IMG/VR virus record: IMGVR_UViG_3300034105_000107
Location: 1-26,989 of that record
DNA from: a virus
Direction: 5' to 3' (one strand)
DNA: 26,989 nucleotides
Shown: positions 1 through 20,633 of the stretch, piece by piece
Layout: each line of letters opens with the position of its first letter
Position numbering within the stretch: the stretch's first letter is position 1
Position numbers and translations under genes: made by a program
The notes under the pieces: model-generated
Seen by the model: only the letters and a program-made list of their open reading frames with translations
Told to the model about the DNA's origin: nothing
The model's database searches: none

Positions 1-3000
1 GTTGTACCCTGAGCACCAGTGGCACCAGTTGTACCCTGAGCACCTGTTGTACCTTGAACACCTTGAGCGCCTAATATACCCTGAGCACCAGTAGCACCAG
101 TTGTTCCTTGAGTACCTGTTGTACCTTGAGCACCTGTAGTTCCTTGTCTACCTTGAACACCTTGAACACCTTGAGCGCCTAATATACCCTGAGCACCAGT
201 AGCACCAGTTGTTCCTTGAGTACCTGTTGTACCCTGAGCACCAGTGGCACCAGTTGTACCCTGAGCACCAGTGGCACCAGTTGTTCCTTGAGTACCTGTT
301 GTACCCTGAGCACCAGTGGCACCAGTTGTACCCTGAGCACCAGTGGAACCAGTTGTTCCTTGAGTACCTGTTGTACCCTGAGCACCAGTGGCACCAGTTG
401 TACCTTGAGCACCAGTAGCACCAGTTGTTCCTTGAGTACCTGTTGTACCCTGAGCACCAGTGGCACCAGTTGTACCTTGAGCACCAGTAGCACCAGTTGT
501 TCCTTGAGTACCTGTTGTACCCTGAGCACCAGTTATACCTTGAGATCCAGTTGTTCCTTGAGTGCCTGTCGTGCCTTGTGAACCAGTAGCACCAGTTGTT
601 CCCTGAGCACCTGTAGTTCCTTGTCTACCTTGAACACCTTGAGCGCCTAATATACCCTGAGCACCAGTGGCACCAGTTGTACCTTGAACACCTTGAGCGC
701 CTAATATACCTTGAGCACCAGTGGCACCAGTTGTACCTTGAGCGCCAGTGGCACCAGTTGTACCTTGAGCGCCTGTTGTACCTTGAGCGCCTGTCGTACC
801 TTGAGTACCAGTTGTTCCCTGAGCACCTGTAGTTCCTTGTCTACCTTGAACACCTTGAGCGCCTAATATACCTTGAGTACCCTGAGTTCCAGTTGTACCT
901 TGAAGACCTTGAATACCTGCAGCAAAGGGTGCAGTCCATTGAATTCCACTTCCAGTCGCGACTAAAATAGAACCGTTAGTGCCCACATTATTATTAAAGT
1001 CGTAAAGACCAGAACGAAGTCTTACATTTCCATTAACGTCCAATTTTTGAGTTGGACTTGTCGTTCCAATTCCAACATTTCCACCATAAGCTGCAAACTC
1101 AATTGTTCCATCCGCATCTACATCTATACTTGGTATACCAGAAACATCATTAACTGAGAAAATCGATCCGGTAGTAAGATTGTTTGTAATACTGAAAAGT
1201 TGCCCAGCAGAACCTTCAAACGATAATGTTCCAGAATTCAAGCTATCATATGGAATGATATCTATTGCAGTACCAATTCCAAAAGCTCCAGTAGAAGGAT
1301 TATATTGTAATTTAGTACTTGTTACATTAAGAGTTGTTGAAATTCCTGATGTAGCAGTTACAAATCCAATAAAGGCATTGGTAGATGTTGTATCGTTAAC
1401 AATTGTAAATCCACCATTATTAGCACCTTGAATACCTTGAGTTCCTTGTGATCCAATTGTGCCTTGAGTACCAGTTGTACCTTGAGCGCCTGTAGTTCCT
1501 TGTCTACCTTGAACACCTTGAGCGCCTGTTGTACCCTGTGTACCTGTTGTACCCTGTGATCCAGTTGTACCTTGAGCACCAGTAGTGCCTTGAGCGCCTG
1601 TCGTACCCTGAGTGCCTACTGTTCCTTGAGTACCTGTTGTACCTTGTGTGCCTCCAGTACCAGCAGTGCCGTTTACACCCGAAGTGCCTTGAATACCCGT
1701 TGTACCTTGTGAACCTGTAGTGCCTTGAGCGCCTAATATACCTTGAATGCCTTGTGTACCCTGAGCACCTGTTGTACCTTGAGATCCAGTTGTACCTTGA
1801 GTGCCTGTTGTACCTTGAGCACCAGTAGTACCTTGTGAACCTGTAGTGCCTTGAGCGCCTAATATACCTTGAATGCCTTGTGTACCTTGAGATCCAGTTG
1901 TACCTTGTGAACCTGTAGTGCCTTGTGATCCAGTTGTACCTTGAGCGCCTGTAGTTCCTTGTCTACCTTGAACACCTTGAGCGCCTGTTGTACCCTGTGT
2001 ACCTGTTGTACCCTGAGCACCTGTTGTACCTTGAGATCCAGTTGTACCTTGAGTGCCTGTAGCACCTTGAGCACCAGTAGTGCCTTGAATGCCTTGTGTA
2101 CCTTGAGATCCAGTTGTACCTTGTGAACCTGTAGTGCCTTGAGCACCAGTAGTGCCTTGAATGCCTTGTGTACCTTGAGTGCCTGTTGTACCTTGAGCAC
2201 CAGTTATACCTTGAATGCCTTGTGTACCTTGAGTGCCTGTTGTACCTTGAGCACCAGTTATACCTTGAATGCCTTGTGTACCCTGAGCACCTGTTGTACC
2301 TTGAATGCCTTGTGTACCTTGAGTGCCTGTTGTACCTTGAGCACCAGTAGTACCTTGAGCACCAGTTATACCTTGAGCACCAGTAGTGCCTTGAGTGCCT
2401 GTCGTGCCTTGTGAACCTAATACACCTTGTGTACCTTGAGTGCCTGTCGTGCCTTGTGAACCTGTTGTTCCCTGTGATCCAGTAGCACCTTGTGAACCTG
2501 TTGTACCTTGTGTACCCTGAGCACCTGTTGTACCTTGAGATCCAGTTGTACCTTGAGCACCAGTAGTACCTTGAGCACCAGTTATACCTTGAGCACCAGT
2601 AGTGCCTTGTGTACCCTGAGATCCAGTTGTACCTTGTGAACCTGTTGTACCTTGTGAACCTGTTGTTCCCTGTGCACCAGTTGTACCTTGTGAACCTGTT
2701 GTTCCCTGTGCACCAGTTGTACCCTGAGATCCAGTTGTACCCTGAGATCCAGTTGTACCTTGTGAACCTGTTGTTCCCTGTGATCCAGTAGCACCTTGTG
2801 AACCTGTTGTACCCTGAGATCCAGTTATACCTTGAGTGCCCTGTGCACCTGTTGTACCTTGTGTACCCTGAGATCCAGTTATACCTTGAGTGCCCTGTGC
2901 ACCTGTTGTACCTTGTGTACCCTGAGATCCAGTTATACCTTGAGCGCCTGTTGTGCCCTGAGCACCTTGAACTCCTTGAGCACCAGTTATACCTTGAGCG

Positions 3001-3914
3001 CCTGTTGTACCCTGTGATCCAATTGTACCTTGAGCACCTTGAGAACCTTGTAAACCATCAGTACCCTGGGCACCTTGTGATCCAATTATACCTTGAGCAC
3101 CTTGTAAACCATCAGTTCCCTGTGCACCTTGTATTCCTGTGGCACCTTGAGCACCTTGAGCACCTTGTAAACCATCAGTTCCCTGTGCACCTTGTATTCC
3201 TGTGGCACCTTGAGCACCTTGAGTACCCTGTAAACCATCAGTTCCCTGTGCACCTTGTATTCCTGTGGCACCTTGAGCACCTTGAGTACCTTGTAAACCA
3301 TCAGTGCCTTGTGCGCCCTGTATGCCTGTGGCGCCTTGCGATCCTGTAATACCCTGAGCACCATCAGCGCCTTGAAGACCTTGCGCGCCTAAAATTCCTT
3401 GAAGACCTTGAGCGCCAGTTGTTCCCTGAGCACCTTGAGCACCTGTTATACCTTGACTACCCTGTGCGCCTATATTACCTTGAATGCCTTGAGTGCCTTG
3501 AGCACCAATTTCACCTTGAATGCCTTGAGTGCCTTGAGCACCAGTTTCACCTTGAATACCTTGTGAACCTATTGTACCTTGCGATCCTTGAACACCTATA
3601 GTTCCTTGAAGACCTTGTAGACCTTGAATACCAATTGTACCTTGAGGTCCTTGAAGACCTATAGCACCTTGAACACCTTGAATACCCTGAGGCCCTTGAG
3701 GTCCTTGAGGTCCCTGAGATCCTTGTGCGCCGAGAGCATCGTATGCATCGCTTAAGCGCCAGATAAGACCGTCACTGTGATATCGATTGCCGTCGTCAAG
3801 TTGTACCTGTCGACCTTTATAGTCTATAGGATTTAATGCTGCTAGATCACCACTGGTAATAACAAACAAACCGTCGTCAACTAATTGTTTGTTTGATAGA
3901 AATTTATTCGACAT
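1..3914 (-). CDS. Giant collagen-like phage fibre protein (C-terminus off the window)
   Basis: Probably a virion fibre or adhesin. From the ATG at 3914 the frame stays open to the window edge (about 1,304 codons), so the 3' end is missing. Residues 1-61 form a non-repetitive head with an [15 protein letters not shown] start. From about residue 62 every third residue is Gly, with Gln very common ([15 protein letters not shown]). Residues about 832-999 are a non-collagen island, after which Gly-X-Y resumes at about 1000. Exact long tandem repeats of 54, 63 and 72 nt are embedded. The start overlaps the stop of the upstream structural gene (TAATG), placing it in the late structural operon. Phage Gly-X-Y tracts usually form triple-helical stalks; the receptor-binding role is inferred. 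Recurrent repeats make it prone to length change, and assembly errors are possible here. Confidence 0.88.
208..567 (-). repeat. 72-nt tandem repeat inside the collagen-like gene
   Basis: The phrase gttgttccttgag recurs at 208, 280, 352, 424 and 496, exactly 72 nt apart, with only a few base changes between copies. Each unit encodes 24 residues (eight Gly-X-Y triplets), so copy-number change keeps the frame. Confidence 0.85.
2811..2945 (-). repeat. 54-nt tandem repeat inside the collagen-like gene
   Basis: The phrase ccctgagatccagttatacc recurs at about 2812, 2866 and 2920, 54 nt apart. Each unit is 18 residues (six Gly-X-Y triplets). A related 54-nt period is visible around 2200-2300. Confidence 0.75.
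3108..3310 (-). repeat. 63-nt tandem repeat inside the collagen-like gene
   Basis: The phrase accatcag recurs at 3108, 3171, 3234 and 3297, 63 nt apart, with nearly identical sequence between. Each unit is 21 residues (seven Gly-X-Y triplets), including a GADG/GTDG-type triplet. Confidence 0.8.
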
Positions 3915-4402
3915 TATATGATACCTACACCCACATGCTCTGCCGAAGCTTGTTCATTAGCTGAAGCCCAAACATCACATGCTCCCGAAACGCTAGATTT
4001 TACCTGGATCGAATCGCCGTTTGCGGTTGCAAGATTTCTTTTGATTAGGGATCTTCCTTGTAACGGAATAGCTACACTCTCGCCTGCAGGAATAAGAGTT
4101 GCGCCCAATGCATCATTTACAACTGAAGCTGTATTTCCTTCTGCGATAAAACGAACTTCAATTATGCAAGAACCACCAGTTTTGTTTTTGACTATAAGTG
4201 GTGTTAGAAAGAATATTTCACCTGCTGCAATACCTCGAGAAGGATAAGAGGGATCTCTAGCATCAGGATATTGTGACTCTGAGGGATCGGGAACAGAAAA
4301 GTCTGGTGCTTCTGCGATTGTAACAAATGTATTAGGAACACTCTCGTAACGAATGTTTACAGGTTTACCTGTTGATGGTTGGCGACATGTAATTCTTGCC
4401 AT
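3914..4402 (-). CDS. Hypothetical virion structural protein
   Basis: A 162-aa protein that I do not recognise by family. It begins [15 protein letters not shown] and contains a beta-rich middle ([23 protein letters not shown]) and an Ala/Ser-rich C-terminus. There is no signal peptide, membrane segment or catalytic motif. Its stop overlaps the start of the collagen-like fibre gene (TAATG) and its start abuts the 618-aa beta-helix protein, so translational coupling with both is likely. Position and composition suggest a late virion protein, perhaps a fibre connector or decoration protein; this is inferred from context only. Confidence 0.7.
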
Positions 4403-9742: not shown

Positions 9743-10030
9743 TTACTTCATAACTCCGTCATACATTTCTTCGAAGTTACGATTTTCGTCCTGCTCTTGA
9801 GCGTAGTTGCTCTTAAAGTAGACACGTGCCATACGACGAAGCATCTTCTTATCAATGCCAAGCTGATCTTCCATTCGCGCGAGAGTGTCCTTCTGCAAAT
9901 CCCTTTCAGCAGCAATTCGCGTCATACTGTCGTTCATTTCAAGAACAGCATCCTTAACGCGCTTCTTGTCCGCTTCAGAAAGACCGTTGATCGAAACGAA
10001 TACTTTTTGATTGTGTCCCATGCCAGCCAT
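9743..10030 (-). CDS. dsbA: DsbA-like double-stranded DNA-binding protein
   Basis: A 95-aa, mostly helical protein. Its second half, ARMEDQLGIDKKMLRRMARVYFKS then NFEEMYDGVMK, parallels the C-terminus of T4 DsbA (DELGVDGKMFNRL... then VVELYDTVF). T4 DsbA binds DNA and assists late transcription from gp55 promoters. Start ATG at 10030 overlaps the gp45 stop. Proximity to gp45, which activates late transcription as a mobile clamp, is consistent. Identification is from a short recalled motif and length, so it is moderate. Confidence 0.65.
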   Translation of the reverse strand: MAGMGHNQKVFVSINGLSEADKKRVKDAVLEMNDSMTRIAAERDLQKDTLARMEDQLGIDKKMLRRMARVYFKSNYAQEQDENRNFEEMYDGVMK

Positions 10031-10683
10031 TACTTAGTCTCCACTGCAATCCAATACTTGATCTTCTTGTTCTTCGCCGCAAACTTCGCGAAGCCGTTCA
10101 ACATAACTTCAACGTCATAATCATCCGCAATCATTTTGAGATTTTCAAACTTGAACGTAACAGAACAATCTTCACCTGTATGATCGGCAAGCTTGATAGA
10201 TGCAGAGTTAGAAGTGTCGTTTGCCTTCTCATGCGCGAGAAGACGAAGTTCACCATTCTTACCAACAATAGAAATGTTAGGAAATCCGTTTGTTGCAGCA
10301 AGACGACGGATACGCTGCCAAACAGAATCGGTCAGAGTGAAGCGAAGATCAACCTGCTTCATCGTCAGTTCCTTATCGGGAGGGGAAGTGATGAGACCAA
10401 TCGCACTTGAGTAATAGTGCAGACCGACAGTACCATCAGTCATGGTTAGAGACTTGTCACCAAAATCGATATCAGGATTATCGAAAGAGGTTACGTTTCC
10501 AAGAAACTGTGGCAAATCATAGATGCCAAACTGAATAGGAATGTTGTCTTCAAGTTCAGCTTCACATAGAATAGACTTGTCCATGTTGATGGTCTTCTGA
10601 ACATTACCTGTTCGAAGAACGAGTCCAGAATTGATTTCTGAAAAGTTCTTGAGGACCTTTAGAGTGTTTTCGCTAATCTTCAT
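10030..10683 (-). CDS. 45: DNA polymerase sliding clamp (gp45)
   Basis: Trimeric processivity clamp of the phage replisome and, in T4, the activator of late transcription together with gp55 and gp33. The N-terminus MKISENTLKVLKNFSEINSGLVLRTG closely parallels T4 gp45 (KDTTALLKNFATINSGIMLKSG), and length (217 aa; T4 228) agrees. Other shared features are IYDLPQFLG and an EDCSVTFKFENLKM stretch. The 15 residues missing relative to T4 are spread through the middle and C-terminus. ATG with GGAG 11 nt upstream. It heads the 45-(dsbA-like)-(GIY-YIG)-44-62-regA replication run and follows dNMP kinase. Confidence 0.93.
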   Translation of the reverse strand: MKISENTLKVLKNFSEINSGLVLRTGNVQKTINMDKSILCEAELEDNIPIQFGIYDLPQFLGNVTSFDNPDIDFGDKSLTMTDGTVGLHYYSSAIGLITSPPDKELTMKQVDLRFTLTDSVWQRIRRLAATNGFPNISIVGKNGELRLLAHEKANDTSNSASIKLADHTGEDCSVTFKFENLKMIADDYDVEVMLNGFAKFAAKNKKIKYWIAVETK

Positions 10684-10708: not shown

Positions 10709-11386
10709 TTAGGCTGCTAGTATAGCAGACTTTTGTGGGCCTGTAAAGACTTTTAGCAGGTGACTGATATCAGCTTCAAGCATGGAAATGTTTCCGTTGT
10801 TATCAAGATGATAATCCATAATCGATCCTGCCCATGCCCATTCAGAGTAGTGGATCTTATACTGATCTACCATTGCATCTTCGGCAGCTAACTTTCGAGA
10901 AATCTGTTCGTGAGTTTCAGCTTTCCTGTTAGCAATGACAGCAGTATCGTACCAAATAGGATCAGGACCACGCTGAACACGAACTGCAAACCCTCCCTTT
11001 GATCTCATCCAATCAATTTCATTTGGGAATCGAACATCAGCAATTATTACGTTCTTATACATTTCGGCTTTACGCTCTAATGCATGTACCCAAACGTCTT
11101 GATGAAAAACATTGCGACCAGCTTCTGTTCCCATCAATTGAAGAGCTAGACGAGGTGAAAAATCAAACTCAAACTTCTTTGACCACCATTCATCTTTTGT
11201 TTCACGAAATTCCCTACTTTCTAAAGTGTCACCTTCAAGAAGGGCTCGCGGCCATCCGAAGATAGCCGCAGTTGCATCCTTAACAGCATCAGCAAATGAA
11301 AGCTTAACAAAGCCGTGCTTCTCGACCAAAATATCAGCAACAGTGCCTTTACCTGATCCAATAAATCCTACAACACCAATTATCAT
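10709..11386 (-). CDS. 1: Deoxynucleoside monophosphate kinase (gp1)
   Basis: Phosphorylates dNMPs to dNDPs for phage DNA synthesis. The N-terminal P-loop is GFIGSGKGT (7-15). Further features of the T4 gp1 family are the LSFADAVKDATAAIFGWPR segment, LALQLMGTEAGRNVFHQDVW, and VIIADVRFPNEIDW. The 225 aa compare with 241 in T4. T4 gp1 acts on dTMP, dGMP and hydroxymethyl-dCMP; whether this enzyme accepts a modified nucleotide cannot be read from sequence, but the glycosyltransferases nearby make the question worth asking. The start overlaps the upstream glycosyltransferase stop. Confidence 0.93.
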   Translation of the reverse strand: MIIGVVGFIGSGKGTVADILVEKHGFVKLSFADAVKDATAAIFGWPRALLEGDTLESREFRETKDEWWSKKFEFDFSPRLALQLMGTEAGRNVFHQDVWVHALERKAEMYKNVIIADVRFPNEIDWMRSKGGFAVRVQRGPDPIWYDTAVIANRKAETHEQISRKLAAEDAMVDQYKIHYSEWAWAGSIMDYHLDNNGNISMLEADISHLLKVFTGPQKSAILAA

Positions 11387-12279
11387 TATAGATTTCCTGT
11401 ATATTGAGCGATTGCTTGCATGTTACCAGTGAAGGCATAAGTGCCAACATGTTGCGTCTTCATCCATGGACACAGCCAAATTTGCACATCGATCTTTCGA
11501 AGATACTGACAGAACATGTAATCCTCAGAAAGATACCTATGTGACGCATTCTTTTCTGTGTTCATAAATTCTTGTGCCTTCTTCTTGATGTTATCACCCT
11601 GTGCAGCAATCTTTACGAGATGGTATAGATCGTCATAAGTATAACCATTGTCAATCACAGTATCAAAATATGCGTGAATGTAGCGAGAACCATCAAAGTT
11701 GGCCTGACCAACATGATCTGGCTTGTAGTTCTGCTTCGGATAGGCATTCTTGAACTTTTCGAATACTTCACGTTTGACCATCATGAAGCCAGTTCCAATT
11801 TCCATAACCTCAAGAGGTTCGCGAACGTTGAACTGTGTTGTACCTGGCACGGGATTGAAAACATAATCGCCAACAAGATTGTCCAATTCATTTACTGGTG
11901 TTGTTGGATCTTTAACAAGAGCCGCAGCAATGTTTTTCCAATTGATTGACTTCTTAGGATAAGGTGCACCAATAACGTCTTTGTCCAAAGCAATAAGGGC
12001 TAGAACATCTTGAGGATCAAAATGAATATCAGAATCGATGAAGAGAAGATGTGAGCTATCTGAGCGCAAGAATTCGTCTACCAAATAGTTTCTTGCGCGG
12101 GTAATTAGTGATTCATTGAAGAGGAAAGAGAATCGAACTTCAATGCCATATTGAAGACAGATGCTTTGAAGATCAAGGCATGCCTTCATATAAAGTCCAT
12201 TGTTCTGTCCACCATACATAGGTGTTGCTATGAACAGTTTGGTCTTTCTTAGGTCTTCAACTTTGATTGATAATTCCAT
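11386..12279 (-). CDS. GT-A type glycosyltransferase
   Basis: A 297-aa family-2-like glycosyltransferase. It has TKLFIATPMYGG at residues 13-24, the nucleotide-sugar/metal DXD motif in LLFIDSDIHF (82-84), a GTGFMMVKREVF segment near 167-178, and the late acidic motif LSEDYMFC typical of GT-A catalytic bases. It has no membrane segment, so it is likely soluble. The acceptor (DNA base, virion protein or host surface glycan) is unknown. The RBS is ATGGAG before the ATG, and a strong hairpin terminator lies just upstream, so it begins or rejoins a transcript that continues into dNMP kinase. Related enzymes are common in T4-like phages of marine and soil bacteria. Confidence 0.82.
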   Translation of the reverse strand: MELSIKVEDLRKTKLFIATPMYGGQNNGLYMKACLDLQSICLQYGIEVRFSFLFNESLITRARNYLVDEFLRSDSSHLLFIDSDIHFDPQDVLALIALDKDVIGAPYPKKSINWKNIAAALVKDPTTPVNELDNLVGDYVFNPVPGTTQFNVREPLEVMEIGTGFMMVKREVFEKFKNAYPKQNYKPDHVGQANFDGSRYIHAYFDTVIDNGYTYDDLYHLVKIAAQGDNIKKKAQEFMNTEKNASHRYLSEDYMFCQYLRKIDVQIWLCPWMKTQHVGTYAFTGNMQAIAQYTGNL

Positions 12280-12349: not shown

Positions 12350-12562
12350 TTACGAGGCAATACGATAAAACATCTTGCGAGTACCGTTAACATTACGGTA
12401 GTTGCTATAGATGGTCTTACCTTCAACATTGCGAAGATCCCAAACGCGCTTATACACGGCGTCCTTAGACAAGCCGGAAAGCTGTGCAAGTCGACCAGCA
12501 GTGATGCCAGTACCCTTGTTATTCTTACGCAGAACCTTAGCAACACGGGAAAGATGAGACAT
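12350..12562 (-). CDS. Small helix-turn-helix (winged-helix-like) DNA-binding protein
   Basis: A 70-aa basic protein. Residues 18-45 read TGITAGRLAQLSGLSKDAVYKRVWD, a helix-turn-helix with the LSxxxVYKRV recognition helix, followed by a possible wing (KTIYSNYRNVNGTRKMFYRIA). It is a candidate small transcription factor or DNA-binding accessory protein. ATG with GGAG 7 nt upstream (ATGGAGTTATTTAATG). It lies alone between two hairpins (12606-12638 and 12296-12333), so it appears to be expressed separately from its neighbours. Target sites are unknown. Confidence 0.75.
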   Translation of the reverse strand: MSHLSRVAKVLRKNNKGTGITAGRLAQLSGLSKDAVYKRVWDLRNVEGKTIYSNYRNVNGTRKMFYRIAS

Positions 12563-12645: not shown

Positions 12646-13869
12646 TTACATGGAAATTTCGCCATCATTAGTAGCGGCAGCTTCCGTCTTGACTTCCGGC
12701 TTCGGCTGGAGAGTTTCGTCCAGCTTCATGTAGAGGTCAAAGAAGCCATTCTTGGTATCCACATCAAAGCGGTTCAGACAAAGCTTGATTGCCTTCTCAC
12801 GATCCTGACCGAAGATTGAGAACGCTTCGCAGATGTGGACAAGACGGCGAGTAGAGATGATATCAGACACGGCACCATCGTAGAATGCCTTGCGGATCAT
12901 ATCAGCCCAATTGACTAGCTTTTCTGCAAAGTCATTGTCATCACAACCGGAAGCCTGCAGAATATTCTTCACGATCTTGAGTTCGGTCTTGAGCGGCGGG
13001 TATTCCTGCTCGAAAGTGATAGAGAAACGCTCAAGGAAAGCTTCGTTCATCACGTTGGTACCGATGAAGCGACCGTCGTCAGAACCCTTACCCTTGGTAT
13101 TGGCAGTAGCCAGAATGTTGAAGCCCTTAGCAGGCGTTACCACACGATTGATCTTCTTAAGATAGATCGGCTTGCCTTCAAGAATGGGCTGAAGGCACAT
13201 GAGCTTGGCATCACCGAGATCCACTTCGTCCAGAAGCAGGATGGCACCACGTTCCATAGCCACGATAACCGGACCATTCTGCCAGACAGTCTTACCATCG
13301 ATAAGACGGAAACCACCAATCAGGTCATCTTCGTCCGTTTCTTTGGTGATGTTGGCACGAACCAGTTCACGCTTTTCTTGGGCGCAAATCTGCTCAATCA
13401 TCATGGTCTTACCGTTACCAGACAGACCGGTCACATAAGTCGGATAGAACTTACCAGACTTGATGATCATGCGGACATCGGCAAAGTGGCCGAAAGGAAC
13501 ATAACCAGAAGCCTTAGCGGGAACCAGTGACACAGTATCAGCGACACTGGTGTGCAGAGCAGCAATTGCCATGTCATGCTGATTTGACACTTCGATGGCA
13601 GTGTTAGAAGCAACCGGAACTTCCGAAGCAATATCGGAAGCCTTAATTGCCTTAGCTGCCTTCACGGGCTTAGTGGAACCACTGTCATCAAGGGAATACA
13701 CTCCGCGCGAGACATGTCGCGCCTTGTCCTTGATGAACCAAACCGGATAATCAATTCCGTACTTACGTTCAATGAGGATAACTTCCTGACGGGTGATGGT
13801 CGCGATATCACCGAATTCCTTCTTAACAGCGTTAAAGAAGGCAGACTTGTCGAGAGGGCGCTTAGCCAT
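12646..13869 (-). CDS. MoxR/CobS-like AAA+ ATPase
   Basis: A 407-aa AAA+ ATPase of the MoxR/CobS/CbbQ group. Walker A is GLSGNGKT (148-155), Walker B ILLLDEVD (210-217), sensor 1 ATANT (254-258), and NEAFLERF (275-282) carries the arginine-finger region. Residues 1-55 form a small domain and 60-120 an Ala/Lys-rich linker. T4-like phages often carry such a gene, annotated as the cobalt chelatase subunit CobS. No cobalamin genes are present here, and the neighbour at 13931-16165 encodes a VWA protein, the usual partner of MoxR-type ATPases, so a protein-remodelling pair is more likely than vitamin B12 synthesis. It has its own consensus promoter (13906-13934) and AAGGAAG as RBS. Confidence 0.9.
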   Translation of the reverse strand: MAKRPLDKSAFFNAVKKEFGDIATITRQEVILIERKYGIDYPVWFIKDKARHVSRGVYSLDDSGSTKPVKAAKAIKASDIASEVPVASNTAIEVSNQHDMAIAALHTSVADTVSLVPAKASGYVPFGHFADVRMIIKSGKFYPTYVTGLSGNGKTMMIEQICAQEKRELVRANITKETDEDDLIGGFRLIDGKTVWQNGPVIVAMERGAILLLDEVDLGDAKLMCLQPILEGKPIYLKKINRVVTPAKGFNILATANTKGKGSDDGRFIGTNVMNEAFLERFSITFEQEYPPLKTELKIVKNILQASGCDDNDFAEKLVNWADMIRKAFYDGAVSDIISTRRLVHICEAFSIFGQDREKAIKLCLNRFDVDTKNGFFDLYMKLDETLQPKPEVKTEAAATNDGEISM

Positions 13870-13905
13870 TTAGAACTTCCTTGTGTGTGTTTCGATTATG
13901 TGTAT

Positions 13906-13934
13906 ATTATAGACTAGGTAAAGGTGTTTGTCAA
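13906..13934 (-). promoter_or_regulatory. Perfect-consensus sigma70 promoter for the AAA+ ATPase gene
   Basis: Minus strand: TTGACA (13934-13929), a 17-nt spacer, TATAAT (13911-13906). Both hexamers match consensus exactly. The -35 box overlaps the TGA stop of the upstream VWA gene (13933-13931). Expected start is near 13899, giving a leader of about 30 nt with AAGGAAG before the ATG at 13869. Confidence 0.92.
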
Positions 13935-16165
13935 GCGGCAATTCGCTTGACAAACCGTGAGAGTAGAACACGGGAAACCGTCTTCTTTTCGGAAAACTTG
14001 ATGAATTCCTTTGCAGCCTTGTTACGGGTCATGTTGGAATCTACAACCAGTTCCTTGTTAGTGGAAACATTGAACATCTTAGGGTTGAGAATATAGTATT
14101 CATCATAACCTGCAGTGTCAACTGGAAAAAATCCATCATTTGTCCAAGACTTCTTGGCATCAGTCAGGCGCTTGTCATAAACGCCAAACTTATATTGATC
14201 CCAAACACGCTGGAATCCATCACCGTTGATAAAGAAGCCAATAAGATTACAGTTGGTACGATCCTTCAGAACCTTAAGAAGCAGAGAAGTCATGCGACGG
14301 TCGCCAAGGCTGTACCGAATGTCGTAAGATTTCTTGGTAAGATCATCCTGAAGAATGTACTTGGTCTTACCAGACCAACCATAACCGTACTGATTTTTTC
14401 CATGGAAACCATAGATAGGATCGGATTCGCCATCAGTCAGGAAGATGGTATTGACAACCTGAACTTTAGACTGATTATGGAACTTATTTACAACCAGATC
14501 TGCCAGAGCAATACACTCATTGAGTGGAGTGGACGACATTCCATCACAGGGCATATGACCACCACAACCCATGAGCCAAAGATGGTACATTGCATCATTG
14601 AGTTCCTGGATCTTCATTCGAGATGAAAGAATGTTACGGATCATGACAGGATCCATAGAAATTTCATCTTGATTTTGAGAGAAGAACTGGGTATCCGGAA
14701 GAAGAGTGCCTCCATCATCCTTGTAATCAGTGTACAGAACACTACGGAACGAATAAACCTCAAAAGGAATCTGTACCCGCTTGCAAAACATTGCCAGTGA
14801 GAAAAGCTGCTTTAGCGTTTTCTTCAGGTTGGATTGCATTGAACCAGACCAATCAACAAACATAACGAAGCCGTGATTTTTGCCAGTCGCAACGGAAGTG
14901 ACACGACGGAAAAGGTCATCATTATACTTGTAGGTATGCAGCTTATTCATATCGATTACACCGGTCTTCGAAACGCTGGTGCGACTATATTCATCCGCAG
15001 ACTTTCGCATTTCAAATTCTTTAACCATGAAAGAAATCGTGGCATTTTCATCTGCACGGAACTTCATGAGTTCCGCACGAACCGAATCTTGCCAAAACTT
15101 GTCTTGCCACATCTTAGGAAGATAAGACCGCTGTTCAGCTAGAACCTGCTTGTAGTCAACAACCATCTTGTTGATATCGACAGGACGAGGAAGCTTCAGG
15201 TAAATATACCGTTCGTCCGAATTCTTAATCAGATCATCCTGCGTCTTTTGCCAAGACTTTTCAGTTTCCGATTCCGGCAGGTTGTTATCATCACCGCTGC
15301 CGTTCTGAGAACCCATGTTTATAGGAGTATCAGAATATTCGTTTGAGCGGTCATCAGACTGGGTCTTACCAGACTTATTACCATCTTCATCATCATCCGA
15401 TGCTTCACCATCGGCATTACCGTTGCCGTCAGTTTCATCCGTTTCCGAATCATCATAGGTCATGTCATCAGAGTCCGAATCATCCGATTCCGACCATTTG
15501 CCGTCATCTTCACCGGCTTCTTCGCCCATGTCATCCGGATTGTTTTCTTGATCCTGTTCCTGCTGATCCTTAGACCAAGTGAAAATCTTTTCAGTGAGTT
15601 TCAAAACCTCATCAAAGGTTTCAGCATTCTCAACCTCAAGAAGCATTTTCTTCTCAACAGGAGAAAACTTGATGCCCATCATAGAGCCGCCCTTGCAATA
15701 GATGTTAAGGCGATCAATAAAGGACATTTGATTAACGTCCCGCTTTTCGGTACCGAAGAAATCACGTTCAATGAGTTCCTTATAACCCTTCACGTAATTC
15801 CGACGGGCACCAGGGAAGCGGCGCTTCTGGCGCTTATCAATACGGGCATCCTCAATAACGTTTAGAAAGCCCTTGACGGCACCCATCGCGCGATTAGAAG
15901 CAGAACCCGTAACACGGAGAGCAATATCCTTGATTGCATCAGCCCAACCTTCGGGAGGAGTATCAAGAGCATGGCCGACTTCATGTACAACCAGAAGGTC
16001 ATATAGGTCATCGGAAATATTGTGCCATATCGGCAGACACAGGACACGGTTCTTTACGTCGAACCATGCGGTCTTTGCACCAGGCTTATGCTGTACGGCA
16101 ATGTTTTCAGTGGCCAAAAGCTTAGCCAGCTGAGACTTTCCGTTCTGAATATTTGCTTGTTCCAT
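13931..16165 (-). CDS. CobT-like protein: HExxH metallopeptidase-like domain plus VWA domain
   Basis: A 744-aa protein. The N-terminal domain has VVHEVGHALDTP with HEVGH at 61-65 and a NVIEDARID helix at 102-110, which together look like a zinc-metallopeptidase site (HExxH with a downstream Glu). Residues about 200-310 are a long Asp/Glu/Ser/Asn-rich linker of low complexity. The C-terminal part is a VWA domain with the MIDAS sequence DWSGSM (438-443), a Thr/Ser further on, and FLTDGESD as the fourth metal-binding loop. This layout is like CobT of cobaltochelatase and other VWA partners of MoxR ATPases. It precedes the AAA+ gene, so the two probably work together. The substrate is unknown. 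Own promoter at 16189-16218; AGAGGAC RBS. Confidence 0.87.
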   Translation of the reverse strand: MEQANIQNGKSQLAKLLATENIAVQHKPGAKTAWFDVKNRVLCLPIWHNISDDLYDLLVVHEVGHALDTPPEGWADAIKDIALRVTGSASNRAMGAVKGFLNVIEDARIDKRQKRRFPGARRNYVKGYKELIERDFFGTEKRDVNQMSFIDRLNIYCKGGSMMGIKFSPVEKKMLLEVENAETFDEVLKLTEKIFTWSKDQQEQDQENNPDDMGEEAGEDDGKWSESDDSDSDDMTYDDSETDETDGNGNADGEASDDDEDGNKSGKTQSDDRSNEYSDTPINMGSQNGSGDDNNLPESETEKSWQKTQDDLIKNSDERYIYLKLPRPVDINKMVVDYKQVLAEQRSYLPKMWQDKFWQDSVRAELMKFRADENATISFMVKEFEMRKSADEYSRTSVSKTGVIDMNKLHTYKYNDDLFRRVTSVATGKNHGFVMFVDWSGSMQSNLKKTLKQLFSLAMFCKRVQIPFEVYSFRSVLYTDYKDDGGTLLPDTQFFSQNQDEISMDPVMIRNILSSRMKIQELNDAMYHLWLMGCGGHMPCDGMSSTPLNECIALADLVVNKFHNQSKVQVVNTIFLTDGESDPIYGFHGKNQYGYGWSGKTKYILQDDLTKKSYDIRYSLGDRRMTSLLLKVLKDRTNCNLIGFFINGDGFQRVWDQYKFGVYDKRLTDAKKSWTNDGFFPVDTAGYDEYYILNPKMFNVSTNKELVVDSNMTRNKAAKEFIKFSEKKTVSRVLLSRFVKRIAA

Positions 16166-16588: not shown

Positions 16589-17500
16589 CTATAAACCATT
16601 GTAATTGTTGATCAATTTTAGTCCATAGTTGTTAACTTTTGGCAGTTTTGAAAGATCAACTCCTGGTTTTAATCTCAGCTTATTTTCCTTAAACTTTGAA
16701 TAGTCCACATAATGATGCCAACGACCATACTTCCAAACCATTTGAGCAACATCTGGATGCATATCAACTAGCATCTGAGACTTATTCACAGTACCAGTTG
16801 CATTCAATTGGCCATCACGCCATTTGCTCTTGTCTAGCTCACCTTCAGCATGGTAGAATTCAGAAGTGTTTCCACCCTTAACAGTTTGCGTTGCGGCTTT
16901 ACCCTGCATCCATATATTGAACTGAATCGTGCAATCACCATCTTTAAGAACATTGAGGCAGATATCAGTATCTTCGTTATAACGTCCACGCCATCTATGT
17001 TTACAATCATTGGAAATGAGTAGACAAGAATAGATACGTGTGTTTATCACAAAAGGTGGATACTTCTGATTGGGTGCAATAAAGAACCGATACTGAAAAC
17101 CTGAGATAGGAACATTCTCAAAACGATCAACAAAATCTTCGGCAGCTTTGAAACATACTCCAGAACCTACTCGAATTCTTTCGTTCTTATGAAGTCGATA
17201 GAAATCTGAAATGTTATCGTCTAATACCCAATGCTTCTCAGCTCCTATTGAAATAGCATGATCCCAACACCAATTACGAGCCCGACCAGGGCCGTCACCG
17301 TGGTTGCTGAAAGGGGCAACAAGCAGAGTAACATAATCCCTAATATTGAAATTATCAAGGGCAGCTTCATAAGAACTTTCATCTTGTGGCTCTATCGCTA
17401 TGTAATGTGGAACTTTCATACGCGCGAGTGAACGCGAAGTAAACATGCTTTCATGTCTACCTTTAGATATGATATAAACAGGATTTTTAGGGTTAGTCAT
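16589..17500 (-). CDS. TET-associated-type glycosyltransferase (TAGT/GREB1-like)
   Basis: A 303-aa protein. Its order of motifs matches what I know of the phage TAGT family: PVYIISKGR near the start, GPGRARNWCWDHAI (70-83), the LDDN motif in HWVLDDNISDFYRLHKN (90-106), GFQYRFFI with YPPFVINTRIYSC in the middle, and YNEDTDICLNVLKDG (174-188) with VKGGNTSEFY (207-216). LDDN and NEDTD are likely metal/sugar-nucleotide and catalytic residues. Family members are proposed to glycosylate oxidised or hydroxymethylated bases in phage DNA; that role here is inferred. No TET/JBP or hydroxymethylase gene is in this window. Its start overlaps the preceding gene by 8 nt. Confidence 0.8.
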   Translation of the reverse strand: MTNPKNPVYIISKGRHESMFTSRSLARMKVPHYIAIEPQDESSYEAALDNFNIRDYVTLLVAPFSNHGDGPGRARNWCWDHAISIGAEKHWVLDDNISDFYRLHKNERIRVGSGVCFKAAEDFVDRFENVPISGFQYRFFIAPNQKYPPFVINTRIYSCLLISNDCKHRWRGRYNEDTDICLNVLKDGDCTIQFNIWMQGKAATQTVKGGNTSEFYHAEGELDKSKWRDGQLNATGTVNKSQMLVDMHPDVAQMVWKYGRWHHYVDYSKFKENKLRLKPGVDLSKLPKVNNYGLKLINNYNGL

Positions 17501-18920: not shown

Positions 18921-20633
18921 TCATACTAGTCTGCTGAAGTTTCGGATCTTCTCAAAGCGATATACCTTATCAAACTTATCTATGAGTTGATCCTGTTTAT
19001 GGCTTATTATAAACGTATTTGTATCATCTGTCAAGGTCTTAATTATCTTAAGGAATTCATCTGTGCCATTTGCGTCCAAACTTCCATCTAAGATTTCATC
19101 TAGTATCAACAGATTCGTATTGACGGAATTTTTCATCTTGGCAATTGTACGCCAAGTAAACATTAGCGCCAAATCAATACGTGTCTTCTCACCTTCCGAG
19201 AAGTTCGCATAGGAAAACTCATCACGATATCTGGACTTGATTACCTCGTTGAAGTTTTCGTCAATGTTAAAGTTTACAAAGAATCCCATCTGAGCGAGGT
19301 ATTTATTAACAAGCTTATTGATGATTGGAATGTATTGCTTGATGATCTTGGTCTTTATACCGCCATCTTTCAATAGCGCCAGTGCAGTCTCAATGTACTT
19401 GCGATCTTCCAACAGTTCAGTTTTGAGAATGTTGAGATTTTCAATGTTATCAATTGTAGCAGACAATTGTTCTTCACTGTCTTGAACCATCTTGTCTGCA
19501 TTCTTGATCTTCTCTATTGCGTCTTCAGTATCATTGACCATTGAGACTAAATGCATCATCGTTTGTTTCTTTGCAGATATATCAGCAGTGATAGCTTGAA
19601 TGCGCTTTACGTTTTCTTCTTTCTTGCTAATCTGCACAAGGAGATCATTTGAGTGTAGTTCTGCAAATTCAGCAGCAGATACCAAACTCATGATTTCATC
19701 ACTCAACTGAAGTACACGTTTGGAACGAAACGTTTCCTCAATAAGCTGTTTGCATGTTGGACAATTGTCAGTTGTCTTCAACATAGTTTTTTCAGAATCT
19801 AATCGTTTGGCATCAGTATCATGTTGAGTATACAACTTAATTGCATTGTGAAAGTGAGTCTTCAATTCAGTGAGGTCGTTTACTTCGGTTTGTAATTCTT
19901 TACGTTCGTCAACCAAATTCTCAACAGTTGATATAAGATCACGTTTTTGATCGGTATAATCGTTCAGTTGTTTTTGAAGTTCCAACATACGATCCGCGCT
20001 AGTCTTCTTCAAGCCTGCAAGAGTCTTTTCAATGTAAGATTTCTTATCTTCGTGAGACTGGAGATGAACACGATTATTTTCTAGGTCTTGCTTGTTTACC
20101 AATGCCCTCTGCTTCATCAGTACATTCATTACCGAAAAGATTTGAATATCTAGAAGACCTTCAATGATAGCACGACGATCAGCGGGAGATAACTGCATGA
20201 AAGGAACAAAAGATGCAGAACCAAGAATGACAATCTGAGTGAATGCCTTGTAGTTCATTTTGAGGATGAACTTCTCAAGGTACTCTTGATAGTCGCGCGA
20301 AGCTGAATCCTGATTAATCATCGTACCATCTACCCAAATCTCAAAGACATTAGGCTTGATACCACGAATGATTCGATACTCTTTACCGTTTGTATTGAAA
20401 TCAATCTCCACAACGCAATCTTTACCGTTCACTGAATTAACCAGTGTCGGCTTATTGATGTTACGGAATGCTTTACCAAAAAGCACAAACGTCATGGCAT
20501 CCAGAATAGTGGATTTGCCATGACCGTTCGCGCCAACAATCAGATTTGTCTTAGATGAAACTAAATCAATCTCAGTAAACATATTACCAGTCGAAAGAAG
20601 ATTTTTCCAACGAATAGTTTTAAATGTTAGCAT
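18921..20633 (-). CDS. 46: Recombination nuclease subunit gp46 (Rad50/SbcC-like)
   Basis: SMC-like ATPase that with gp47 resects DNA ends for recombination-dependent replication and helps degrade host DNA. Walker A GANGHGKST (34-42); the Q-loop region follows ILGSASFVPFMQL (136-148); two coiled-coil arms flank the zinc hook CPTC (291-294); the ABC signature FSEGEK is at 478-483 and Walker B LLILDE at 508-513. The 570 aa match T4 gp46 (560), and identity is high at RGIKPNVFEI and KSRYRDEFSYANFSEGEK. The start ATGCTAA overlaps the MazG-like gene's stop. Transcribed with 47. Confidence 0.97.
   Translation of the reverse strand: MLTFKTIRWKNLLSTGNMFTEIDLVSSKTNLIVGANGHGKSTILDAMTFVLFGKAFRNINKPTLVNSVNGKDCVVEIDFNTNGKEYRIIRGIKPNVFEIWVDGTMINQDSASRDYQEYLEKFILKMNYKAFTQIVILGSASFVPFMQLSPADRRAIIEGLLDIQIFSVMNVLMKQRALVNKQDLENNRVHLQSHEDKKSYIEKTLAGLKKTSADRMLELQKQLNDYTDQKRDLISTVENLVDERKELQTEVNDLTELKTHFHNAIKLYTQHDTDAKRLDSEKTMLKTTDNCPTCKQLIEETFRSKRVLQLSDEIMSLVSAAEFAELHSNDLLVQISKKEENVKRIQAITADISAKKQTMMHLVSMVNDTEDAIEKIKNADKMVQDSEEQLSATIDNIENLNILKTELLEDRKYIETALALLKDGGIKTKIIKQYIPIINKLVNKYLAQMGFFVNFNIDENFNEVIKSRYRDEFSYANFSEGEKTRIDLALMFTWRTIAKMKNSVNTNLLILDEILDGSLDANGTDEFLKIIKTLTDDTNTFIISHKQDQLIDKFDKVYRFEKIRNFSRLV

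Follow-up and report, generated by a model that had tools for sequence, protein, structure and literature searches.

A CobS-like ATPase and a HExxH-VWA protein of a T4-like phage probably form a protein-remodelling machine rather than a vitamin B12 enzyme

We analyzed a stretch of viral DNA of 26,989 bases (IMG/VR record IMGVR_UViG_3300034105_000107), a contig fragment referred to as the window. Its minus strand carries a gene for a protein of 744 amino acids (aa), followed after a gap of 61 bases by a gene for an AAA+ ATPase of 407 aa. An earlier interpretation made from the DNA letters alone (the sequence-only reading) had placed both open reading frames exactly where we find them (12646-13869 and 13931-16165) and had regarded the products as a MoxR-type AAA+ ATPase with a zinc-peptidase-like VWA partner rather than a cobaltochelatase. 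The gene pair is not new, as both products match already known phage families over their full length, the ATPase PHROG 249 (9.9e-114) and the partner PHROG 459 (1.5e-196). In the literature, phage cobS is commonly classed among the vitamin B12 auxiliary metabolic genes and is used to mark marine T4-like cyanophages (PMC9983427, PMC10665884). Our analysis suggests that the pair probably works as an ATP-powered remodeller or cutter of proteins, not as a vitamin B12 enzyme.

The sequence-only reading had credited the ATPase with all AAA+ motifs, and each of them could be located. Besides Walker A and Walker B (Table 1), the protein carries sensor-1 (ATANT, residue 254), the arginine finger (ERF, 280) and TRR (340), making the AAA+ motif set complete. 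Pfam-type matches were to AAA_5 (64 bits) and CbbQ_C, and the best profile match was midasin, followed by CobS, CbbQ and NorQ. With complete motifs and domains of the AAA_5/CbbQ_C type, the ATPase belongs to the MoxR type.

The partner combines, as had been described, HEVGH and NVIEDARID with an acidic linker and a VWA domain with a metal ion-dependent adhesion site (MIDAS). Among 48 distinct phage partner sequences sharing 32-100% identity with the 744-aa protein, H61, E62, G64, H65, N102, E105, D106, R108, D438, S440, S442, T546 and D578 were invariant or nearly so; over such a range of identity, the motifs are not a product of chance. Conservation of the HEVGH histidines had been proposed as a check, and both H61 and H65 are invariant. 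Indeed, all 48 partners possess HExxH together with a conserved downstream Glu, the pattern of gluzincins, and the EDxR-type motif follows HExxH at a spacing of 26-49 residues. E105 is likely the third metal ligand. An AlphaFold2 model was confident for residues 10-206, representing the N-terminal domain, and for the VWA domain, with the linker disordered. It places HEVGH within a helix of residues 52-68 and E105 within another of residues 91-116. The linker varies in length among relatives and is strongly acidic wherever it can be measured. The MIDAS is intact, with DWSxS, T546 and D578 invariant, as is characteristic of the VWA member of MoxR-type pairs, and in fold searches the best PDB match of the pair was NorQ with the NorD VWA domain. 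Sequence searches of the partner were of little use: phmmer and profile searches against PDB sequences returned nothing credible, and Pfam and NCBIfam gave no useful match. The conservation pattern points to a zincin-type site, and the peptidase role of the HExGH domain is putative.

Table 1. Positions of the gene pair, its motifs and domains, its promoters and the genes that bracket it (window coordinates; pLDDT, predicted local distance difference test).
Feature	Position	Strand	Evidence or remark
MoxR/CbbQ/CobS-like AAA+ ATPase, 407 aa, PHROG 249 ('porphyrin biosynthesis', cyanophage CobS)	12646..13869	-	open reading frame, profile matches
Walker A GLSGNGKT, residues 148-155	13405..13428	-	motif
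Walker B ILLLDE, residues 210-215	13225..13242	-	motif
HExxH / acidic linker / VWA (MIDAS) protein, 744 aa, PHROG 459 'peptidase'	13931..16165	-	open reading frame, PHROG match
N-terminal domain, residues 1-206, zincin-like	15548..16165	-	AlphaFold2, mean pLDDT 86
HEVGH, residues 61-65	15971..15985	-	H61, E62, G64, H65 invariant in 48 distinct relatives
NVIEDARID, residues 102-110	15836..15862	-	N102, E105, D106, R108 invariant
Disordered acidic linker, residues 206-293 (88 residues, 37.5% Asp/Glu)	15287..15550	-	pLDDT <50 for 209-293
VWA domain and C-terminal part, residues ~430-744	13934..14878	-	model; NorD VWA is best PDB match
MIDAS motif DWSGS, residues 438-442	14840..14854	-	completed by invariant T546, D578
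Promoter of ATPase gene, perfect sigma-70 TTGACA-N17-TATAAT	13934-13906	-	overlaps stop codon of VWA gene
Promoter of VWA gene, sigma-70-like TTGACT-N17-TAAGAT, 9/12	16217-16189	-	position kept in close clade
gp46 recombination nuclease subunit (upstream side of pair)	18921..20633	-	library matches, neighbourhood comparison
gp45 sliding clamp (downstream side of pair)	10030..10683	-	library matches, neighbourhood comparison

Liu et al. 2021 introduced the name CobST for the pair, together with the suggestion that it hijacks host CobN (PMC8651126), so that the phage would contribute an accessory cobaltochelatase which inserts cobalt and boosts cobalamin. The ATPase is indeed related to CobS (E 3e-26 with the CobS equivalog TIGR01650 and 1e-24 with PDB CobS), and the phage VWA region aligns with the VWA of CobT (hhalign 87%, 26 CobT rows; a profile comparison using two CobT rows was uninformative and was redone with these). 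However, the TIGR01650 score of 92.4 bits does not reach the NCBIfam cut-off of 558.55 bits, and a maximum-likelihood AAA+ tree separated the CobS clade (100/99) from the phage ATPase clade (99/98). Branches in this tree are very long (9.46 for one NorQ/CbbQ-like row and 2.42 for Rts1), and therefore only this separation was used and not the deeper joins. The partner had no Pfam match to the CobT families PF06213 and PF11775 even at E 10, and PF06213 had none in the window. HExxH was present in 48/48 phage partners and in 0/26 genuine CobT genes with adjacent CobS, a set whose dominance by a single bacterial group restricts the statement on CobT. EDxR was likewise absent from CobT (0/26), where HNExxH, HDxxxH and similar spaced variants occupy the corresponding region. 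Among 12 pair-bearing phage records tested (55-252 kb, some of them fragments) none held a CobN-type gene, and the window, itself a fragment, contains no cobalamin gene, in agreement with the sequence-only reading. SAR11 bacteria are not known to make cobalamin. These hosts of phage HTVC008M are also without MetH (PMC12478193). Judged from the sequences, the phage ATPase and its partner are not orthologues of CobS and CobT. A chelatase role of the pair is unlikely, and a cobaltochelatase working with host CobN very unlikely. The class proposed by the sequence-only reading is thereby supported: the metal site, invariant in the phage partners, is lacking in 26/26 CobT, the ATPase falls outside the CobS clade, and the NorQ-NorD VWA complex gives the best PDB fold match.

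Relatives of the ATPase were found in 548 phage records and relatives of the partner in 463, the numbers of Synechococcus (365), 'Cyanophage' (61) and Prochlorococcus (24) records being the same for both proteins; a scan of viral contigs using the partner as query yielded 78 loci. Phage loci that reach far enough hold both genes, nearly always on the same strand with the VWA gene first, and on contigs of sufficient length the ATPase gene comes immediately or almost immediately downstream. The genes of the window are those of a T4-like phage and comprise the major head protein, UvsY, the UvsW helicase, the late sigma factor gp55, gp47 and gp46 as well as the clamp gp45, the clamp loader gp44/gp62 and RegA. 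Since the major head protein is closest (~66% identity) to those of Methylophilales phage Melnitz and Pelagibacter phage Mosig, we take a proteobacterium, not a cyanobacterium, to be the probable host. In nearly all T4-like relatives of sufficient length, including HTVC008M and P-SSM2, the pair is found between gp46 and gp45 in the order gp55-gp47-gp46-VWA-AAA-gp45-gp44-gp62-regA, and three loci (L083, L085, L091) deviate from it. The neighbours of the pair thus lie in the T4-like replication cluster. The sequence-only reading had envisaged host or virion proteins as targets; the gene order points to the replication/recombination cluster instead.

For jumbo phages, the pairing of a MoxR ATPase with a metallopeptidase-vWA protein was reported by Iyer et al. 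2021, who suggested that it acts in virion assembly (PMC7824862), meaning that the chaperone/protease idea of the sequence-only reading was already in print. A machine that remodels and proteolytically trims structural proteins during virion maturation would fit this proposal exactly, the same paper points to an archaeal virus whose tail development depends on a MoxR-vWA system, and cobS is a cyanophage core gene (PMC3037559). Yet the pair resides in the replication cluster, ~9.6 kb from gp23 and with a sigma-70 promoter, conjugative elements carry relatives although they make no virion, and marine cluster C cyanophages produce virions without cobS (PMC10665884). We therefore consider virion maturation a doubtful explanation. 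The virion proteome of S-CREM2 was no help on the pair, as this phage is without cobS.

The conjugative elements in question are SXT-like elements, IncC plasmids and Rts1. A tblastn search of the phage partner against plasmids found nothing directly; the link was obtained by a motif-based genome scan followed by a search with the mobile-element protein. HExxH is present in 32/32 of these relatives. The mobile-element family passes the CobT Pfam cut-off, aligns with CobT over 538 columns (99.1%) and aligns with the phage N-terminal domain (97.8%), which makes CobT a remote homologue of the phage partner. These alignments are most simply read as evidence of a single superfamily whose CobT members are without the metal site. 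A CobN-type gene was missing from 16 of 19 host genomes of mobile-element relatives (some genomes possibly incomplete), which again argues against a cobaltochelatase; the CobN model also covers ChlH-type proteins and for this reason over-counts rather than under-counts. In an SXT-like element the order is RecT, YqaJ exonuclease, AAA+, DUF3150, HExxH-VWA, RadC and primase, and an IncC plasmid carries ssb, bet, exo, DUF3150 and VWA with the AAA+ gene just upstream. In Rts1, the relatives are grouped with ssb, bet/RecT and exonuclease genes. The bet/exo genes of SXT mediate recombination (PMC2786100), and the fact that recombination genes recur beside the relatives in separate types of element is a hint rather than a proof. 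DUF3150 was not found in the phage records tested. In Rts1 (L135:7369-9771), an IS2-family transposase is located at the VWA gene, whose annotation gives a shortened gene of 1,200 bases. The accessible portion of a Rts1 deletion study does not name the VWA and MoxR genes among 32 genes needed for conjugation. For both reasons, we draw no phenotype from Rts1.

The sequence-only reading had assigned a strong promoter to each gene. This holds for the ATPase gene, whose 12/12 promoter is conserved: at its position 10-12 of 12 bases match in nearly all of ~42 distinct relatives as compared with ~2% of shuffled upstream regions, and it is kept across relatives of ~50-100% identity. The promoter of the VWA gene, 23 nucleotides ahead of the start codon and preserved in position in the close clade, does not deserve the term because its score of 9/12 is reached equally by shuffles (58 sites found versus 52 expected). 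The ATPase promoter is not unique in the window, which also has 11/12 sites upstream of UvsY and gp47 and a further perfect site (given below). Such conventional sigma-70 promoters within the cluster appear to fit early or middle genes of a phage of this kind. A second 12/12 TTGACA-N17-TATAAT site (19034-19006, minus) lies inside the 3' end of gp46, ahead of a small gene without assigned function.

Early expression, with which a host-type promoter is compatible, would also suit an anti-host or anti-defence protease that would unfold and cut a protein of the host, for instance RNA polymerase or a defence factor. The best weak fold match of the N-terminal domain, the antirestriction protein ArdC, fits this idea without being significant. 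Strong sequence conservation and an unchanging gene position in diverse phages would be expected for a phage-internal substrate more than for a rapidly evolving host target, and an anti-host role appears quite unlikely to us.

By analogy with NorQD, we favor with moderate confidence an ATP-driven MoxR AAA+/VWA remodeller with an active protease head. Cryo-electron microscopy of NorQD revealed a VWA finger in the pore and pulling on the linker (PMC13036017), and NorD MIDAS mutants lose function and retain NorQ binding (PMC9976466). The resulting scheme comprises a hexameric ring, the VWA finger in its pore, the MIDAS contacting the target and a stretched linker (PMC13036017, PMC9976466). The products of both phage genes would accordingly form one machine of the MoxR AAA+/VWA kind. 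By homology to NorQD, the ATPase ring would hold the partner's VWA domain in its pore, the target protein would dock at the MIDAS and ATP-driven rotation would tug the long acidic linker. The tethered N-terminal domain with its complete gluzincin-type site (HExGH and downstream Glu) would then cut or hold the target, presumably by zinc binding and proteolysis. The most likely target would be a phage replication or recombination protein or a protein stuck on phage DNA. On the grounds that the pair lies inside that T4-like cluster and that its relatives in conjugative elements belong to recombination modules, we tentatively name replication/recombination complexes as substrate. Metal ions are inserted by NorQD and CobNST (PMC13036017, PMC8651126), and the pair might correspondingly be an ATP-driven metal-insertion or remodelling chaperone whose HExxH binds metal for delivery, not for catalysis. 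This is improbable given that E62 is invariant along with the histidines, as catalysis would predict, and that no phage metalloenzyme target has been identified.

Several observations weigh against a remodeller with a protease head acting in replication. A fold search of the isolated N-terminal domain model (pLDDT 86) against the PDB gave no significant match: all hits had E >= 1.1, and although the weak top matches include the zincins ArdC, M61, ZMPSTE24 and IrrE, the fold is therefore not confirmed as zincin. Since the T4-like core order is generally conserved, the position of the pair in the replication cluster may reflect inherited ancestry rather than function. In the tree, the ATPases of mobile elements and those of phages are not closely related, and the transfer of context between mobile elements and phages is weak for this reason.

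A broader speculation, which we rate as somewhat unlikely, is that T4-like phages, SXT-like elements and IncC plasmids share a widespread class of mobile-element metalloproteases coupled to AAA+/VWA, which act on protein-DNA complexes in replication and recombination, with CobT as a relative whose zinc site was lost or absent. If so, cyanophage 'cobS' would be no vitamin B12 auxiliary gene at all.

The pair is flanked by genes, all on the minus strand, for a TET-associated glycosyltransferase (16589-17500), an Anp1-type glycosyltransferase (11386-12279) and a deoxynucleotide kinase (10709-11386). The two glycosyltransferase genes and the kinase gene accompany the pair in most close relatives, which suggests glycosylated hypermodified DNA. 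A 70-aa protein without family match (12350-12562, minus) is encoded directly downstream of the ATPase gene, also in most close relatives. A collagen-like G-X-X repeat protein of >1,300 aa (3-3953, minus), open at the contig end, is probably a tail fibre. A T4-like phage cluster with the pair was also seen inside a bacterial isolate assembly (Nonlabens xiamenensis, 188 kb contig, L092), and many contigs of metagenome-assembled genomes found to carry the pair resemble phage contigs.

Many ocean viruses hold this pair under a vitamin label. Our evidence indicates that the phage 'cobS' product is partnered by a conserved peptidase-like VWA protein and is not a CobS orthologue. If so, much of the B12 inference from viral metagenomes would be misplaced and a core phage machine awaits its substrate.

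How does the pair compare with known systems? HTVC008M (AGE60441-AGE60442) and P-SSM2 (PSSM2_150, PSSM2_154) encode full-length homologues of both proteins in the same order at the same gp46/gp45 site and differ by sequence divergence only (~32-36% identity for the partner, 50-63% for the ATPase); in P-SSM2 three small genes separate the pair members. The jumbo-phage pair of Iyer et al. (group 2.2 jumbo phages) shares domain architecture and functional idea, a likeness drawn from its description (PMC7824862). The modules of SXT-like elements, IncC and Rts1 likewise combine HExxH, ED[VA]R, an acidic linker and VWA with a CbbQ_C-type AAA+ protein in one gene cluster, but their ATPases fall into another clade, DUF3150 is present and AAA+ precedes VWA. 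CobS is related to the phage AAA+ protein and CobT also has an acidic linker and a C-terminal VWA domain, whereas CobT lacks HExxH and EDxR in 26/26 cases, the phage ATPases form their own clade and the phage pair comes without CobN. NorQ/NorD likewise consists of a MoxR-like ATPase and a partner with an N-terminal domain, a disordered linker and a C-terminal MIDAS VWA domain. The task of NorD is to help insert iron into nitric oxide reductase, and the accessible portions of the NorD reports describe no HExxH peptidase site in its N-terminal domain; the phage partner carries a peptidase-like domain where NorD has an N-terminal domain of its own.

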